A stretch of DNA of 47,198 bases. It comes from an uncultured Burkholderiales bacterium. GTDB taxonomy: Bacteria; Pseudomonadota; Gammaproteobacteria; Burkholderiales; Burkholderiaceae_C. A model generated the notes under the pieces. It was not told where the DNA came from, searched no databases, and saw only the letters and a list, made by a program, of their open reading frames with translations. The translations under genes and the position numbers were made by a program. This document shows, one piece after another, positions 25,230-33,391 of the stretch (its first letter is position 1; each line of letters begins with the position of its first letter). The DNA is taken from the NCBI GenBank assembly GCA_903896615.1, contig CAITYM010000042.1:1-47198 (forward strand), given 5' to 3'.

Positions 25230-27992
25230 CTAGTGGATTGGATCTGCAGGGATGATAGGTTGGCTCTCCATGGGCAAACTAATCATAAAAATAGCCCCTT
25301 TATCGCTTGCATTCTTAGCAGTGATTGTACCTTCGTGTGCCTCAATGATTGCCTTAACAATGGACAACCCCAAACCAACGCCCCGGGTCGTGGATTCTGT
25401 TTGACCTCTAGTGAACTTTTCAAATAAAAAGTTATCCTTAGCGTTTGTTGGACCTGTTAAACCTGGTCCGTAATCGCGTACATAAATAGAGAAGCGATCA
25501 TCCATGATATGTGCATTAATGATAATCTTATTGTCAGCCGTATGTGGCTTTGCATATTTCACTGCATTTTCAATCAAGTTTACAAATACCCTCTCTATTA
25601 GTACCGCATCACAGCGAATGAGCGGTAGATCGATAGGGATATGACTGTCGATATTGAAGTCCCCCAGGGATTGATGGCAAAGTCGAATAGAGGTACCTAC
25701 AATTTCTTGAATGGAGTGCCAATCTCTGCGCAGGTTAACTTTGCCACTCTGTAATTTTGCCATCTCCAATAAATTTGATACTAGTGCGAAAAGTTCTTTG
25801 GCTTCGTGGTGTATAGCTTTAGCTGCACTGTTTTGCTCTGGATTTAGGGGAGGTTGTGCGAGTGTTAAATTTTCAGCAAATCCGATAAGAGACGTCAATG
25901 GTGTTCTCAAGTCATGAGAAATTGTAGCTAGCAACGTGTTGCGAAGGTGCTCGGACTCCATTTCAACTGTGGTTTGCTGCGCAATTTGAACATAGTGAAC
26001 ACGCTCTAATGCAATTGAGATTTGACGAGCCATGGTATCTAAGAGCTTTATTTGCTCTGGTATTAATAACCAGCGTGCATTAGTTGGCTTGACGGCTAAT
26101 ACCCCGCGGGTATTCATTGGAGCGATCAAGGGCACATAGTGCCAGTTTGAGGCTGACAGGGTATTTGTCGCTAGGCCAGCAGATTTACTATTGTTAAATG
26201 CCCAGTCCGCGATACTTTCATCAAAATCACCAGGCAATGGCTTGGGAACTTCGAGAACATTATCTGCATCGGCTATGAAAATTCGAGCTCCTTCCCCAAA
26301 TACCCTACTGATCGTTGCCTCCCCAATTTCTATGACTTCCTTGTAGTGCAATGCAGCGGATAGTTCTCGGGTTAATTCAAATAAATAGTTTGTTTTCTGC
26401 TCTCTAATGGCTGAAATTCTGGCGGAAAACGTAAGGTTTGCAGTGAGTTGACCAATCAATAAGCCCACACCCAACATAACTGCAAATGTAAACAAATACT
26501 GAGCGTCGGCGATAGCAAAAGAAAACTGGGGCGGTACGAAAAAGAAATCAAAACACAGTACTGCCAAAACCGCGGCGAACATTGCAGGCCTTCTTCCAAG
26601 TTTGACAGAACATATTACAACGTACATTAGAAAAAGCATAACGACATTGGCTTGATCAAAGATACTTGAGAATGGATATGCAATGGCAGTAGTGAATATT
26701 CCTGCTGCTAGCGTCCAACCGTAATTTGGCCAGTTTATACCTTCAAATAGACTGGTGGAATCTTCAATCAATTCTTTACTCAAATAGGGTGCTATACGCC
26801 TAGAACTATTTGGGGTACTGATCTCAATAATGTCAATTTCAGGAGCTAGTATGGCTAATTTTCGAGTAAGAGTTGGATTAAACGCTCTAATAAAATTGCC
26901 AAATTTGTATTCTTTGGGCCGTCCTACAAGTAGAGTTGCACAGTTGAGTTGATGAGCATGTTCATATAAAGCGTTTGCTATATCATCGCCAGTTAAAACA
27001 GATGTGCTTGCGCCTAATTCCTCTGCTAGCTTTAATATCGTGAGGACCTTATCCCTTCGCTTTGCAGGTAATCTTTGTAGCGTAGGAGTCTCTACGTAAG
27101 CAACATACCACTTCACGCTAAGTTGAGCAGCTAAGCGGGCACCGCTTCGAACCGCATGTTCAGCACCCTCTGCAGGTCCTACGCAAACCAGTAAAGTTTG
27201 CGAAGTATGCCAAGACGGTGCGTCAACGATACCCTTAGATGTTGTGGTGCTTGAGTTCTCAACCCTATAACTTCGGACATCGTCACCGACACGCTCAGCT
27301 GTTTTGCGCAGTGCAATCTCGCGAAGTGCAATTAAATTACCTTTTCTAAAGAAATTATTTTCAGCTTGCTCAGCCTGTTTTGAGACGTAAACTTTTCCTG
27401 CTTTTAAGCGGTTGATCAACTCATCTGCTGTTACGTCAACCAGTATGACTTCATCAGCTTTTTCGATAATTACGTCAGGTACAGTTTCATGAACCCTTAC
27501 GCCTGTGATAGTGCCGATCGTTCCGTTCAAACTCTCTAAATGTTGAACATTAAGGGCAGTCCATACATCTATTCCCGCATCCAAAAGTTCTTGTACGTCT
27601 TGCCAACGTTTGGGATGACGTGAGCCAGGTGCATTGCTGTGTGCGAGCTCATCAACAAGGATGATGTCTGGCTTTGCATTGAGTGCAGCGTCCAGATCAA
27701 ATTCGTAAAGAGTTCTACCTTTGTGTTCAATTTCCTTGAGGGCAAGTTTGTTAATGCCGTTGACCAGAGCCTGTGTTTCGCGCCGATTATGTGTCTCAAT
27801 GAGCCCAATTAAGATATGCTTTTGTCGCTGTCTCTCGGTTTGGGCTGCATTAAGCATTGCGTAGGTTTTACCGACTCCCGCACTTGCTCCAAAATAAATA
27901 CGCAATTTTCCTCTTTTAGCCTTTAATTCATCCTCCTTTATCTTCTCAAGTAGAGCGTCTGGTTGAGGTCTGCTAAATGGGGAAATTGCCAC
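25230..27992 (-). CDS. kdpD: KdpD, K+-sensing histidine kinase
   Basis: Inner-membrane sensor kinase (920 aa) that phosphorylates KdpE. Domains in order: N-terminal KdpD domain with Walker A GASAGVGKT (35-43) and VDELAHSNAPGSRH; a universal-stress-like domain (about 250-370); four membrane helices (about 420-520); a GAF-like region; HisKA with ATISHDLRTPLTSL (His near residue 690); and the ATPase domain with NLIENAVKYA, VRDYGPGL and GVGLGLSIVKAIIEAHEGTI. The start codon is GTG with AAAGG upstream, 28 bases after the kdpC stop. Length is close to the 894 aa of the enterobacterial protein. Confidence 0.97.
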   Translation of the reverse strand: MAISPFSRPQPDALLEKIKEDELKAKRGKLRIYFGASAGVGKTYAMLNAAQTERQRQKHILIGLIETHNRRETQALVNGINKLALKEIEHKGRTLYEFDLDAALNAKPDIILVDELAHSNAPGSRHPKRWQDVQELLDAGIDVWTALNVQHLESLNGTIGTITGVRVHETVPDVIIEKADEVILVDVTADELINRLKAGKVYVSKQAEQAENNFFRKGNLIALREIALRKTAERVGDDVRSYRVENSSTTTSKGIVDAPSWHTSQTLLVCVGPAEGAEHAVRSGARLAAQLSVKWYVAYVETPTLQRLPAKRRDKVLTILKLAEELGASTSVLTGDDIANALYEHAHQLNCATLLVGRPKEYKFGNFIRAFNPTLTRKLAILAPEIDIIEISTPNSSRRIAPYLSKELIEDSTSLFEGINWPNYGWTLAAGIFTTAIAYPFSSIFDQANVVMLFLMYVVICSVKLGRRPAMFAAVLAVLCFDFFFVPPQFSFAIADAQYLFTFAVMLGVGLLIGQLTANLTFSARISAIREQKTNYLFELTRELSAALHYKEVIEIGEATISRVFGEGARIFIADADNVLEVPKPLPGDFDESIADWAFNNSKSAGLATNTLSASNWHYVPLIAPMNTRGVLAVKPTNARWLLIPEQIKLLDTMARQISIALERVHYVQIAQQTTVEMESEHLRNTLLATISHDLRTPLTSLIGFAENLTLAQPPLNPEQNSAAKAIHHEAKELFALVSNLLEMAKLQSGKVNLRRDWHSIQEIVGTSIRLCHQSLGDFNIDSHIPIDLPLIRCDAVLIERVFVNLIENAVKYAKPHTADNKIIINAHIMDDRFSIYVRDYGPGLTGPTNAKDNFLFEKFTRGQTESTTRGVGLGLSIVKAIIEAHEGTITAKNASDKGAIFMISLPMESQPIIPADPIH

Positions 27993-28020: not shown

Positions 28021-28593
28021 TTATTTAAGTTGATCCAACGCTAAGTTGAGCTTTAGCACATTCACTTTTTCTTCTCCGAGCCATTTAAACCAAGGACGCT
28101 CGATTGAGTGCTCCACCAAAGTTAAGACAGTTGCAGAGGTTAGTTTTCTTGTCTTCGCAATGCGGTGAACTTGGTAAAGCGCTGCTGCTGCGCTGATGTT
28201 GGGGTCAAGTCCGCTTGCAGAAGCTGTGATGAGGTCAACAGGTATGGGGAGTTTATTGGTTGGATCTGCCGCCTTTAAATCGTCAATTCTAGACTTAATC
28301 GCGTCAGTTAACGCAGGATTAAGGGGCCCTAAATTTGATCCACTAGATGCAGATGCGTTGTAGGCCATGGGAGAGGTGGCAGAAGGCCTGGACCAAAAGT
28401 ATTTGGGCTCTGTAAAGCTTTGACCGATTAACTCAGACCCAATTATTTGATCTCCCTTGTAGATCAGGCTACCGGAGGAGGCGTTAGGAAATGCGAGTTG
28501 TCCAATTTCGGTAATGAGTAATGGATAAATAAGTCCAGTTAAAACCGTTAACAATATAAAAAGTACCAGCGCAGGTCGAATAATGTTTTTCAT
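28021..28593 (-). CDS. kdpC: KdpC, subunit of the K+-transporting P-type ATPase
   Basis: Single-helix subunit (190 aa from this start) of the KdpFABC pump, which helps coupling and ATP binding. It has an N-terminal helix (RPALVLFILLTVLTGLIYPL) and family motifs GSELIGQSFTEPKYFWSRPSA, DLITASASGLDPNISAAAALYQV and RPWFKWLGEEKVNVLKLNLALD. Two starts compete. The ATG at 28623 overlaps the kdpB stop as TAATG and would add ten residues. The ATG at 28593 is preceded by the same bases, GAGAAATATT, that precede the kdpB start, and matches the family N-terminus. I prefer 28593, but coupled initiation at 28623 is possible. Confidence 0.95.
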   Translation of the reverse strand: MKNIIRPALVLFILLTVLTGLIYPLLITEIGQLAFPNASSGSLIYKGDQIIGSELIGQSFTEPKYFWSRPSATSPMAYNASASSGSNLGPLNPALTDAIKSRIDDLKAADPTNKLPIPVDLITASASGLDPNISAAAALYQVHRIAKTRKLTSATVLTLVEHSIERPWFKWLGEEKVNVLKLNLALDQLK

Positions 28594-28622
28594 AATATTT
28601 CTCTTATACAAAAGTGTAGACA

Positions 28623-30710
28623 TTAAATAGTTGATATAAAAGAGAGTAGTACATCGATTACTTTTATTCCAATAAAAGGAACGATCAAACCGCCCAAGCC
28701 GTATATCAAAAGATTCCTTCTGAGTAAGGCGGCAGCACCAACGGCTCTGTACTCAACGCCTTTTAGAGCTAAAGGTATTAAGAAGATAATAATCAACGCA
28801 TTGAAAATAACGGCGGATAATATCGCGGAGCTTGGGCTTGCAAGATTCATTACATTAAGGCTAGACAACTGTGGGTAAGTTGTAACGAATATGGCAGGCA
28901 AGATTGCAAAATATTTTGCAACATCGTTTGCAATAGAGAACGTTGTGAGGGACCCCCTTGTCATCAAAAGGGCTTTCCCCGTCTCGACAATCTCCATGAG
29001 CTTTGTTGGATTAGAGTCCAAGTCGACCATGTTGCCCGCTTCCTTGGCTGCTTGAGTGCCGCTGTTCATAGCAACAGCTACATCTGCCTGAGCTAATGCG
29101 GGTGCATCATTGGTTCCGTCCCCAGTCATCGCAACCAATCTGCCTTCAGCTTGGAAATCCCTAATCATTTGTAACTTTTGCTCCGGTGTCGCCTCAGCCA
29201 AGAAGCTGTCAACGCCTGCCTCAGCTGCAATAGCTGCTGCGGTGAGCTTGTTGTCACCTGTGATCATGACTGTTTTGATGCCCATTTTCCTCAGCTCTGC
29301 AAATCGCTCACTAATCCCAGGCTTGACGATATCTTTAAGTTCAACTATTCCTAATGTTTTTAGTCCATCAACTACAGCAAGTGGGGTGCTTCCTTTACGA
29401 GATACCTCGTCTGCCATGCGCATCATATCTGCAGGAAAGTTGCCGCCTAATGATTCAACATATTTCTTGACTGAATCAACCGCTCCCTTGCGCAGTGAGC
29501 GAACAGTGCCATCGGAGTTTTTAACGTCCATACCGCTCATTCGGGTTTGTGCAGTAAAGGGAACCTCAAACACCTCACCCTCTAACGGGTGAATGTTGCC
29601 TAGTTTTTGGGCTAAGACAACAATACTTCTTCCCTCTGGCGTTTCATCCGCTTGGGAGGCCCATATGGCGCACTCACCCAGTTCGATAACGGATACCCCT
29701 GAGGAGGGTAAAAAGGCTGAGGCTTGTCTGTTTCCAAATGTAATGGTGCCTGTCTTATCAAGCATTAAAACATCAACGTCACCTGCAGCCTCTACTGCAC
29801 GTCCTGATGTTGCGATAACGTTAGCCTGCATCATGCGACTCATACCAGCAACCCCAACTGCGGAGAGTAAGCCGCCAATGGTGGTTGGGATAAGGCAAAC
29901 GAGAAGCGCAATAAGTGATGTGATGCTCACGACCGATCCCGCTTGAGCTACATCCACGCTAAAAGCGGAGAAGGGTAACAAGGTAACAGTTACGATTAGG
30001 AAAACGATTGTGAGCGCCACTAAGAGAATGGTGAGTGCAATCTCATTGGGTGTCTTTTGCCTTTTTGCCCCTTCGACCATGCTGATCATTCTGTCCAAAA
30101 AAGATTCACCGGGGTTGACAACGATCTCAACGACCAGCCAATCGGATAGTACCTGTGTGCCTCCAGTCACAGAGGAAAAATCTCCACCTGACTCCCTGAC
30201 TACGGGCGCAGATTCACCTGTAATTGCACTCTCATCTACTGTAGCTACACCTTGGATGACTTCTCCGTCTAAAGGAATCGTGTCCCCAGTCTCTACTAAT
30301 ACAACGTCTCCTTTTTTAAGGTTTTCAGCTAGTATGGACTCCCATTTCAATCCATATGAGCGTCCATTGAGTTTTTTAGCGATCGTGCTTTTCTTTAATC
30401 CTCTAAGCGATGCAGCTTGAGCTTTACTCCTACCCTCTGCAAGACTTTCAGCAAAATTCGCAAATAAAACGGTAAACCATAACCACGCAGAGATTGAGAA
30501 AATAAATCCAATATTTCCTTCTGATGTGAATTGATCGGGATTTTTCGTGGCCATAAAGCCAATAAAAGTTGTCAAAATACTTCCCAGATACACAACGAAC
30601 ATAACTGGATTCTTCCATTGAGTTCTGGGGCTTAATTTTTTAAAGGATTCAGCAAATGATGTCTTTAATAAAGCTGGATCAAGCAGAGTCAGTGATTTTT
30701 GATTACTCAT
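28623..30710 (-). CDS. kdpB: KdpB, catalytic P-type ATPase subunit
   Basis: ATP-hydrolysing subunit of the Kdp K+ pump, 695 aa. P-type hallmarks: TGES with the regulatory Ser ([16 protein letters not shown]), [11 protein letters not shown] with the phosphorylated Asp (about residue 318), a nucleotide-binding domain with [25 protein letters not shown] and [43 protein letters not shown]. Seven or so membrane helices are spaced as in the family. It begins 24 bases after the kdpA stop behind GAGAAATATT, and its TAA overlaps an ATG of the kdpC frame. Confidence 0.98.
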
Positions 30711-30734: not shown

Positions 30735-32534
30735 TTACAACTTTGTCCAAAGCATTAGATGCTCAACCGTTGGGCCCAGAGCAAGCGCTGGAACGTAGTT
30801 TAGTAAACCAACGAGAAGAACAGTCCCTACAAGAAGGATAATAAATAACGGCCCATGCGTTGGCATCGTGCCTACCGTAACGGAGAGACGTTTTTTCTCA
30901 GCTAAGGAACCTGCAATTGCAAGAATGGGTAAAATCACTCCAAAGCGCCCAAACCACATCACTACGGCAAGTAACACGTTATAAAATGGCGTGTTTGCAG
31001 AAAGGCCTGCAAAGGCGCTACCGTTGTTATTTCCTGCAGAGCTCAAAGCATAGAGAATTTCAGAAAATCCGTGAGCCCCCGGGTTAGCTACGCCTGCCTT
31101 GCCGGCATCTGCCAGCAAGGCAATTGCAGTCCCCGCTAATACCAAAATGGGAGTCACCAAGATTGCAATTGAAGTGAGCTTCATTTCATGTGATTCAATC
31201 TTTTTACCCAAATATTCGGGCGTTCTGCCAATCATCAGGCCTGAGATAAAGACTGCTAGTATTGCAAATATCAACATACTGTAGAGACCCGTCCCAACTC
31301 CTCCAAATACAACCTCTCCAAGTTGCATCATTATTAAGGTGACAAGCCCCCCCATCGGGGTTAACGAGTCATGCATGGTGTTGACTGCTCCGCAGGATGC
31401 GGAAGTGGTGATTACGGCAAAAAGGGAGGAGGAGTTGATGCCAAAGCGAACTTCCTTCCCCTCCATGTTGCCACCCGATTGGAAGGCATTCATGGTTTGG
31501 TCCACGCCGAGCGGAGTCAGGAGCGGGTTGCCGGTTTGTTCCGCATTTGTAGTAACGACAACAGCAACTACAAAGATGATCGTCATAGCCGCTAAGATTG
31601 CTACGCCTTGACGCATATCTCCAACAACGGCACCAAACGTAAAGCAAAGGGCCGCGGGTATCAAGAAAATCGAGATCATCTGCAAAAAGTTTGTTAAAGC
31701 AGTTGGGTTTTCAAAGGGGTGTGCAGAGTTTGCGTTGAAGAAACCACCGCCATTCGTACCCAACATCTTGATAGCTTCTTGTGAGGCAACCGGACCCATT
31801 GCAAGAATTTGGGTATCTGTTTTTGAATCAATAGTAACTGGATTTCCTTTTTCGTCTTTTACGGGTTGCCCATCGTCGCCGAGTTTGGGCTCTTGATACT
31901 TTGTGATTTCAACTGTTTTTGCTTCCTTATAAGCGTCAAAGTTTTGGATTACGCCTTGGCTGTTGAGTACCACAGCAAACACAATAGACATAGGTAGAAG
32001 TATCCAAGCTGTAATCCGCGTTATGTCAACCCAGAAGTTTCCAATACTTTGCGTTGATTTTCCAGTGAACCCCCTAAAAAGGGCAAACACCACTGCAATA
32101 CCGGTTGCAGCAGAAAAGAAATTTTGTACGCTAAGAGCCAACATCTGAGTTAGATAACTCATGGTTGCTTCGCCCACATAACTTTGCCAGTTGGTGTTAG
32201 TGACAAAACTGACTGCTGTGTTAAACGATAAGTCAGGTGAGGTGGCGGGCATGCCCGCAGGATTCAGGGGTAATAGATCTTGAAGTCTTTGTACAGCGTA
32301 GACAAATAAAACTCCGATAGCATTAAACGCTAATAGCGCATAGGCGTAATGAGACCAGTTCATAGTCTCCTCATCCGATGTGCCTATTGCTTTGTAAACA
32401 TAGCTCTCTAGCCTAAGAAATATTTTAGGCAATTTGCCGTCATATACCTTAGTTATCCAAGATCCTAGGGGAGAAGCTGCAAAGAATAGAACAACTAAAA
32501 ATAGGATTAATTGTCCCCAAGCTGATGTACTCAT
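30735..32534 (-). CDS. kdpA: KdpA, K+ channel-like subunit
   Basis: Ion-selecting subunit of the Kdp pump, 599 aa, related to Trk/Ktr transporters. The four filter-like regions are visible: [59 protein letters not shown] and [22 protein letters not shown]. The frame stays open upstream to 32666, but that extension overlaps kdpF and looks non-coding. The ATG at 32534 has a strong GGAGGA seven bases ahead and gives the normal N-terminus ([17 protein letters not shown]). Its A is shared with the kdpF TAA stop (TAATG), so the two are translationally coupled. Confidence 0.97.
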
Positions 32535-32632
32535 TAAAATTCCTCCGCGCAGATTAATGCGTATATTAGATAAATTACAAGAAAAATGGAACAAACTCCG
32601 CCAATTAGGTACATAAGGTCTTGACCGTTCAT
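32534..32632 (-). CDS. kdpF: KdpF, small stabilising subunit of the Kdp pump
   Basis: A 32-residue single-helix membrane peptide directly before kdpA. It ends [12 protein letters not shown], closely matching the conserved KdpF ending YLxYALxxAExF; the family norm is about 29 residues. KdpF binds KdpA and stabilises the KdpABC complex in the inner membrane. The ATG at 32632 has AAAGGA eight bases upstream. The stop shares one base with the kdpA start, and the start shares four bases (ATGA) with the stop of a further small gene upstream. Easily missed because of its size. Confidence 0.92.
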
Positions 32633-32733
32633 GATTGGGGTCCTTTAGGGTTTGATAGTTTGACAAAGCCTCTCACTAGCAAAGTCAGTGAAAGCCACAA
32701 CGCAAAAATACTCAATATGTACACACGGTCCAT
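32629..32733 (-). CDS. 34-aa one-helix membrane protein leading the kdp operon
   Basis: An open frame of 34 residues, starting [16 protein letters not shown], then [10 protein letters not shown], and ending in a polar tail SNPKGPQS. It would place one membrane helix (about residues 4-20) with a basic end. The ATG at 32733 has a strong AGGAGA (32738-32743) at good spacing. The stop overlaps the kdpF start as ATGA, typical of coupled genes. Small unnamed proteins of this size and build are, to my knowledge, often found ahead of kdpF in betaproteobacteria. Possible roles are an extra pump subunit or a translation leader for kdpF. Coding is well supported by layout; function is inference. Confidence 0.78.
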
Positions 32734-32774
32734 GGATCTCTCCTAAATGGCGATTAATTATTGCCGATGGTTAA

Positions 32775-32840
32775 ACTATATGGCGCTAGATGTAAAAAAC
32801 CTGCATATATATTGATTTAGGTATAAAAAAACTGTAAAAA
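32775..32840 (-). promoter_or_regulatory. Candidate kdp promoter and KdpE-binding region
   Basis: On the minus strand a TATAGT -10 (32780-32775) lies about 42 bases before the first small gene, with a poor -35 (CAGGTT). Two copies of TTTTTACA (plus-strand TGTAAAAA at 32791-32798 and 32833-32840) lie upstream, 42 bases apart, about four helical turns. The distal copy adjoins GTATAAAAAAAC. The enterobacterial KdpE site also combines TTTATAC and T-rich TTTACA elements. A weak -35 with activator boxes beside it fits KdpE control; binding itself is inferred. Confidence 0.45.
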
Positions 32841-33010: not shown

Positions 33011-33043
33011 AGCAAAAAGCCCAAGGGGAATACCTTGGGCTTT
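33011..33043 (-). terminator. Rho-independent terminator of the HU gene
   Basis: AAAGCCCAAGG (33016-33026) and CCTTGGGCTTT (33033-33043) pair over 11 bp with a 6-base loop. Read on the minus strand, the stem is followed by TTTTTGCTTTT. Strong intrinsic terminator. Confidence 0.88.
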
Positions 33044-33112: not shown

Positions 33113-33391
33113 TTAGCGTTTGTTAACGCGATCTTTGAGCGTTTTTCCAGCGCTAAATCTAACTACCTTAGAAGCGGCAATCTTGATGGTCGCACCTGTA
33201 GAGGGGTTGCGTCCTGCGCGCGCAGCTCTTTTCTTTTGGCTAAATGTGCCAAAGCCTACTAAGGTAACTGAGTTACCTTTGGTGAGGGACTTGCCGATAT
33301 TCTCAATAAAAGAGCTGAGAGCTCGGGCTGCAGCGGCCTTAGAGATGTCCGCGTCAGCTGCCATGTGTTCAATAAGTTCTGTTTTGTTCAT
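33113..33391 (-). CDS. HU family DNA-binding protein
   Basis: Nucleoid-associated histone-like protein, 92 aa, binding and bending DNA as a dimer. Starts [30 protein letters not shown] and carries VTLVGFGTF and the arm motif [20 protein letters not shown], then [12 protein letters not shown], all standard for HU (HupB-like); IHF differs in the arm. It is a single gene with its own terminator, between the K+ channel gene and the kdp operon. Confidence 0.95.

Follow-up and report, generated by a model that had tools for sequence, protein, structure and literature searches.

Kdp is the textbook high-affinity K+ pump. At the locus described here its operon appeared to begin with an extra small frame ahead of kdpF, raising the question whether this frame is a gene and, if so, what its product would do. 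The window, which denotes the whole stretch of DNA analysed, comprises 47,198 nucleotides of contig CAITYM010000042.1 from an uncultured Burkholderiales bacterium. A sequence-only reading of the window had proposed three functions for the frame: an additional Kdp subunit, a peptide interacting with KdpD, or a leader coupling translation to kdpF and kdpA.

The kdp locus and its leader frame

The frame, 34 codons long as had been claimed, is located on the minus strand at 32733..32629, a strand that the earlier reading had left unstated; this was confirmed by the ORF and its translation. On the plus strand of 32629..32733 stops interrupt the frame. The leader start codon is preceded by TTTAGGAGAGATCC-ATG, in which the strong ribosome binding site AGGAGA (32739..32744, minus strand) was read directly, 5 nt before the ATG. 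Both announced junctions were likewise found in the window: ATGA (32632-32629) is common to the leader stop and the kdpF start, and the passage from kdpF to kdpA reads TAATG.

All following genes are on the minus strand. kdpF (32534..32632, 32 aa) was recognised by PF09604 (E 1e-5) and TIGR02115 (28.1 bits, cut-off 26.85), and kdpA, with its ATG at 32534 (30735..32534), by PF03814 (E 8.8e-240). They are followed by kdpB (28623..30710, TIGR01497), kdpC (28021..28623, PF02669) and, as the next gene, kdpD, an open frame of 936 aa with its sensor domain at 27288..27917 (PF02702, E 5.5e-92). A KdpE-box-like site, TTTTTACAGTTTTTTTATACC, lies 86 nt upstream of the leader ATG (32820..32840, minus strand) and differs from the enterobacterial site at three positions. 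An ion-channel-like protein (PF00520 and PF07885; 33454-34479, minus strand) is encoded two genes upstream of the operon; a terminator-like hairpin (33043..33016) and an HU gene (33113-33391) lie between them.

Distribution of the leader gene

Regions upstream of kdpA were collected from 80 named loci, chosen by KdpA similarity, from an evenly drawn Pseudomonadota sample in which 98 of 299 genomes carried kdpA, from further samples of the class and of Acidobacteria, Nitrospirota and Planctomycetota, and from 14 plasmid loci. In total 249 regions were scanned with a first-round profile of 53 leaders at a threshold of 8 bits; three of them duplicate a named locus. Four loci were left unscanned, two with a missing or broken KdpA start (L003, L007) and two with a distant KdpA-like protein (L009, L010). 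The profile reached at least 8 bits in 183 regions, of which two overlapped KdpF, leaving 181, while none of the 249 reverse strands and none of 747 shuffles did so. The frame thus recurs far above the controls in the region where related genomes were to be searched.

Since similarity of KdpA had guided the choice of the named loci, and most of the profile came from them, fair frequencies are those of the drawn samples. The leader was found in 66/94 Pseudomonadota regions (98 minus four already in the set), in 10/12 of the class sample (14 minus the window and one cut locus) and in 13/18 Nitrospirota regions with the first-round profile. It was present in 12 of 18 testable acidobacterial regions (19 scanned of 23 matching genomes, the others having no KdpA start or a match under the cut-off) and in four of six planctomycetal ones, where only full-length KdpA was used, out of 12 genomes with any match. 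The named loci contained it in 60 of 80 cases, one being untestable, the plasmid loci in 10 of 14 and the scanned loci of the window's own order in 6/6.

Most of the first-round hits of this survey went into training a second-round profile, which added seven loci at 8 bits or more, four from Nitrospirota and three others (L256, L260, L264, L265, L216, L233, L085). L216 and L233 are among the 28 of 94 Pseudomonadota regions that had stayed below 8 bits at first. This profile also matched Bacillus badius (L283, 32.1 bits), a Subdoligranulum of the Clostridia (L282, 25.0 bits) and two Deinococcus plasmids (30.6 and 26.8 bits), and gave no match of at least 6 bits on 277 reverse strands. Listeria grayi (L106) was borderline, with 5.9 bits against a null maximum of 5.5. 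A leader was unsupported by the profile in Niallia (L284) and Bacteroides (L285), and none was found in the scanned loci of Lactiplantibacillus, Trichormus, Moraxella and Halobacterium. Counting the second-round matches, the gene spans at least six phyla.

On the Niallia taxi megaplasmid the kdp genes are preceded by a tandem pair of c-di-AMP riboswitch aptamers (RF00379, 108.6 and 101.1 bits), at L284:224-369 and 449-590. The aptamers are followed at 678-792 by a small frame, which the leader profile does not support.

Selection and expression signals

Codon-level selection was measured as pN/pS over 22 disjoint close pairs, picked by nucleotide identity. Picking pairs by low pS biases the ratio upward (leader 1.0, KdpF 0.65) and was therefore not used. 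In frame, the leader showed 130 synonymous and 88 nonsynonymous changes, a pN/pS of 0.247 (p ~2e-24 against neutrality), compared with 1.34 and 1.90 for its other two frames in the same pairs. The conservation check proposed by the sequence-only reading thus gave purifying selection, of a strength similar to that on KdpF (0.191 by the same method). Nine Burkholderia loci repeated the pattern, with a pN/pS of 0.27 for the leader frame and of 2.3 and 1.9 for the two alternative frames.

A Shine-Dalgarno core preceded 56 of 67 leaders, the window included, and 22 of 268 control positions. The KdpE-like box was taken from enterobacterial kdp loci, where we assume it to be the KdpE site; in the enterobacterial reference it stands upstream of kdpF in 12 loci, with 0-3 mismatches. 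Allowing up to six mismatches, it was detected in 30 of 67 loci, always upstream of the leader, and in none of 335 shuffles.

The recurrence far beyond controls, the codon-level signature and the enrichment of Shine-Dalgarno cores together make the frame more than a chance occurrence. Judged by sequence comparison, the window frame is a genuine and ancient small gene of the kdp operon, under purifying selection at the protein level. A chance or decaying frame might be suspected from a copy that breaks off after 22 codons (L081) and from the repeated absences described below; the profile controls, the selection test and the linkage to kdpA speak against it and leave it a negligible probability. 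As a chance frame it was rejected by the empty reverse-strand and shuffle controls and by the in-frame pN/pS.

Properties of the predicted peptide

The family comprises peptides of about 26-40 residues with one predicted membrane helix. Its alignment gave the consensus MD-x-x-[YF]-[LI] ... [FL] ... L ... L-x-x-G-C-[DE]-[RK]-L, with a variable short tail after GC-[DE]-[RK]-L that is often basic and is absent in some species. For the window peptide, AlphaFold predicted a single helix over residues 2-27 (mean pLDDT 86.9, pTM 0.45) which, with the hydropathy, supports the one membrane helix suggested earlier. The mean net charge amounts to -1.0 over residues 1-5 and to +1.6 over the part that starts at residue 23, so the acidic MD start would probably lie outside and the C-terminal motif in the cytoplasm. 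A helical periodicity of conservation was marginal (p 0.018 for positions 4-21, p 0.062 for positions 4-26).

Absence of the leader and history of the locus

A KdpA tree of 176 rows was used to follow the presence of the gene. The tree is unrooted and leaves out 76 loci without usable KdpA, among them all Bacillota; five rows (L085, L256, L260, L264, L265) were scored present by eye and then confirmed by the second-round profile. The leader was present in 145 rows and absent in 30. Presence was clustered: 12 changes sufficed, while shuffles needed 28.1 on average, with 0/500 as low. Rows without the leader are those of Enterobacterales with Moraxella, Rhodoferax, Oryzomicrobium, Methyloversatilis, Laribacter, Agitococcus and some acidobacteria. 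It was absent from 12/12 enterobacterial loci, and one E. coli locus contained kdpF and no leader. Relatives lacking the frame had been named beforehand as an argument against the gene; the frame does go missing, but the clustering of the absences means that this argument reaches only so far. The wide spread of the leader suggests repeated loss rather than gain, Enterobacterales included.

The KdpA of the window is nearest to those of Rhodoferax, Polaromonas and Variovorax. In the window's genus, many genomes of which are incomplete, kdpA was found in only 3/37 genomes, that of the window included (loci L008 and L003 were noted). Given this rarity and the position in the tree, the kdp operon of the window may have been acquired by transfer.

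Linkage to kdpA and operon rearrangements

In 50 chosen kdpA-bearing genomes, 41 matches with E<0.01 were found, one each in 41 genomes and all 41 just upstream of kdpA; nine genomes had no match at this level. At most 150 candidates per genome were scored at the first pass, so that weak copies elsewhere could escape; among the candidates scored, the best match away from kdpA had an E of 0.019 and lay in a frame of 393 aa.

The order of the genes varies. On a Burkholderia stagnalis plasmid (L288:640-900) it is kdpF, leader, kdpA. In three loci the leader comes after kdpB: the gap measures 8 nt in Deinococcus ficus (L287), 14 nt in L240, whose KdpB was identified by eye, and 446 nt in D. radiodurans (L104), whose leader may have a promoter of its own. 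Within the stretch examined, kdpF was undetectable beside a leader in L058, L121 and L240. The leader stands directly upstream of kdpA only in the variants L058, L121, L240 and L288; in the window kdpF takes that place. As the leader gene stays with kdpA in rearranged operons, KdpA is named as its likely partner.

Possible functions of the leader peptide

With moderate confidence, the leader is interpreted as an accessory single-helix component of the Kdp pump, either its fifth subunit or an assembly factor, which would act with KdpA. It is protein-coding, conserved and linked to kdpA, with a single predicted membrane helix, as a subunit should be. The peptide would be made together with the pump under KdpE control, would pack against the membrane-embedded part, with KdpA the most likely contact, and would stabilise or tune the pump, working like KdpF. 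Of the three functions proposed by the sequence-only reading, an additional subunit fits best, given the strict kdp linkage, the protein-level conservation and the movement of the gene with kdpA, from which a physical association is a plausible next step. The peptide would not be essential to the pump mechanism, since it is missing from Enterobacterales and the pump of E. coli functions as KdpFABC. A variant of the same idea, quite unlikely in our estimate, is a factor for assembly or targeting whose action on KdpA is transient, or which shields it from proteolysis, and which does not stay in the mature pump; it accounts for the same data and agrees with the absence from many lineages, and nothing specific speaks against it.

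MgrB, which acts on PhoQ, offers the comparison for a different role, in which a regulatory membrane peptide for the sensor kinase KdpD would report pump abundance or damp signalling. The peptide is indeed a small single-helix protein, the operon often includes kdpD, KdpD was found in 142 of 146 kdpA-bearing genomes, and Trichormus, with a short KdpD, has no leader. If the leader served KdpD, it should occur only with a membrane-bound KdpD, yet it is kept in all four KdpD-less genomes (loci L185, L230, L247, L249; genome completeness is full for G453, 78% for G404 and 57% for G467, with no rating for G600), in D. radiodurans, and in 8/8 acidobacteria whose KdpD open frame measures 381-431 aa, contig ends not being considered in these lengths. 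The proposal of a KdpD-interacting peptide is disfavoured and considered unlikely; a separate kinase could still be the partner.

To the suggestion that translation of the leader tunes kdpF and kdpA, the spacing of the genes gives a divided answer. Such a leader would bring ribosomes to kdpF and kdpA while the peptide itself has no task. Among 176 loci with both leader and kdpF, 94, the window among them, allow a kdpF start overlapping the leader end, the overlap being 4 nt in 84, and Shine-Dalgarno sites precede the leaders. In the other 82 no kdpF start codon overlaps the leader; in 26 of these the smallest possible gap exceeds 12 nt and in five it exceeds 40 nt, and three could not be placed. 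Overlap was lacking in 37/65 loci of Pseudomonadota, 11/12 of Acidobacteria, 11/12 of Nitrospirota, 3/3 of Planctomycetota and 12/59 named loci, so that the tight spacing seen in the window does not hold across the family. Nor does the first place in the operon, which the leader occupies in the window: it is preceded by kdpF in L288 and by kdpB in L287, L240 and L104, and in L058 it occurs without a detectable kdpF. Together with the conserved amino acids of the leader, this leaves little room for coupling as the main role, to which we assign a low probability; coupling may come on top of another role, especially in betaproteobacteria. The preferred reading remains an accessory component of the pump.

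Relation to known families and systems

Among Pfam and NCBIfam families none fitted the 53 leaders, which gave scattered weak matches only (best E 0.012), and no PDB chain fits the family. A duplicate of KdpF was considered and rejected: PF09604 and TIGR02115 matched 0/53 leaders at E<=0.1, and hhalign of the leader against the KdpF profiles gave a probability of 20% (E 0.001), so that a weak similarity remains. In RefSeq one 34-residue relative, WP_212667346.1 (L097:445-549), bears the misleading name 'potassium ABC transporter ATPase'. In L096 and L098-L104 no listed feature covers the leader, the plasmid gene table being incomplete. On these comparisons of sequences and annotation, the leader is a real, wide and mostly unnamed gene that is often absent from annotation.

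In the literature no description of the leader family was recognised, a weak negative drawn from open-licence papers, and the main text of PMC10117765 leaves kdp unmentioned. Excerpts of three papers give a 120-nt 5' region before kdpF in Mycobacterium smegmatis (PMC5401905), a region of ~100 nt before kdpF in Caulobacter (PMC8552747) and 143 nt between a terminator and kdpF in Bacillus thuringiensis (PMC6488665). These regions are long enough for a gene of the leader type, and such '5' UTRs' reported upstream of kdpF merit re-reading for coding sequence. In the excerpt from PMC5401905 the operon of Clostridium acetobutylicum is written kdpZYABCXDE.

The KdpA chains of the PDB, three 557-aa variants in 25 entries, are apparently all one E. 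coli protein, and two Kdp structure papers, as far as their excerpts go, use E. coli (PMC6255902, PMC12629597). It is nearly an even bet that the ancestral Kdp was a five-part complex and that, in most Pseudomonadota with kdp and in at least five further phyla, the pump contains another single-helix subunit next to KdpF. This subunit would have been missed because biochemistry and structures used an enterobacterial pump that lost it. If most of the other lineages sampled make one more conserved membrane peptide, the four-subunit picture would become a special case. The fifth subunit may determine the affinity for K+, the stability or the inhibition of the pump, for which E. coli would have other solutions.

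Small hydrophobic frames have been named in kdp operons before, among them kdpZ and kdpY of Clostridium acetobutylicum. Its orfZ/kdpZ, like kdpZ of Alicyclobacillus acidocaldarius, stands before a kdpF-like frame and kdpA as the leader does, and would probably be the same gene. To our knowledge, orfZ/kdpZ has not been recognised as a wide family or given a function. The earlier label 'undescribed' thus stands as regards Pfam and NCBIfam and has to be given up in part, with one relative named in RefSeq and a probable Clostridium counterpart.

The leader has no sequence relation, in Pfam, NCBIfam or the PDB, to the class of AcrZ, CydX and MgtR, and resembles it as a short, co-regulated membrane helix of the kind that partners transporters and oxidases. 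The closest likeness is to KdpF, which also has about 30 residues and one helix, lies in the same operon under similar selection and is absent from some operons. It differs from KdpF as a separate neighbouring gene, with its own conserved MD start and GC-[DE]-[RK]-L end.
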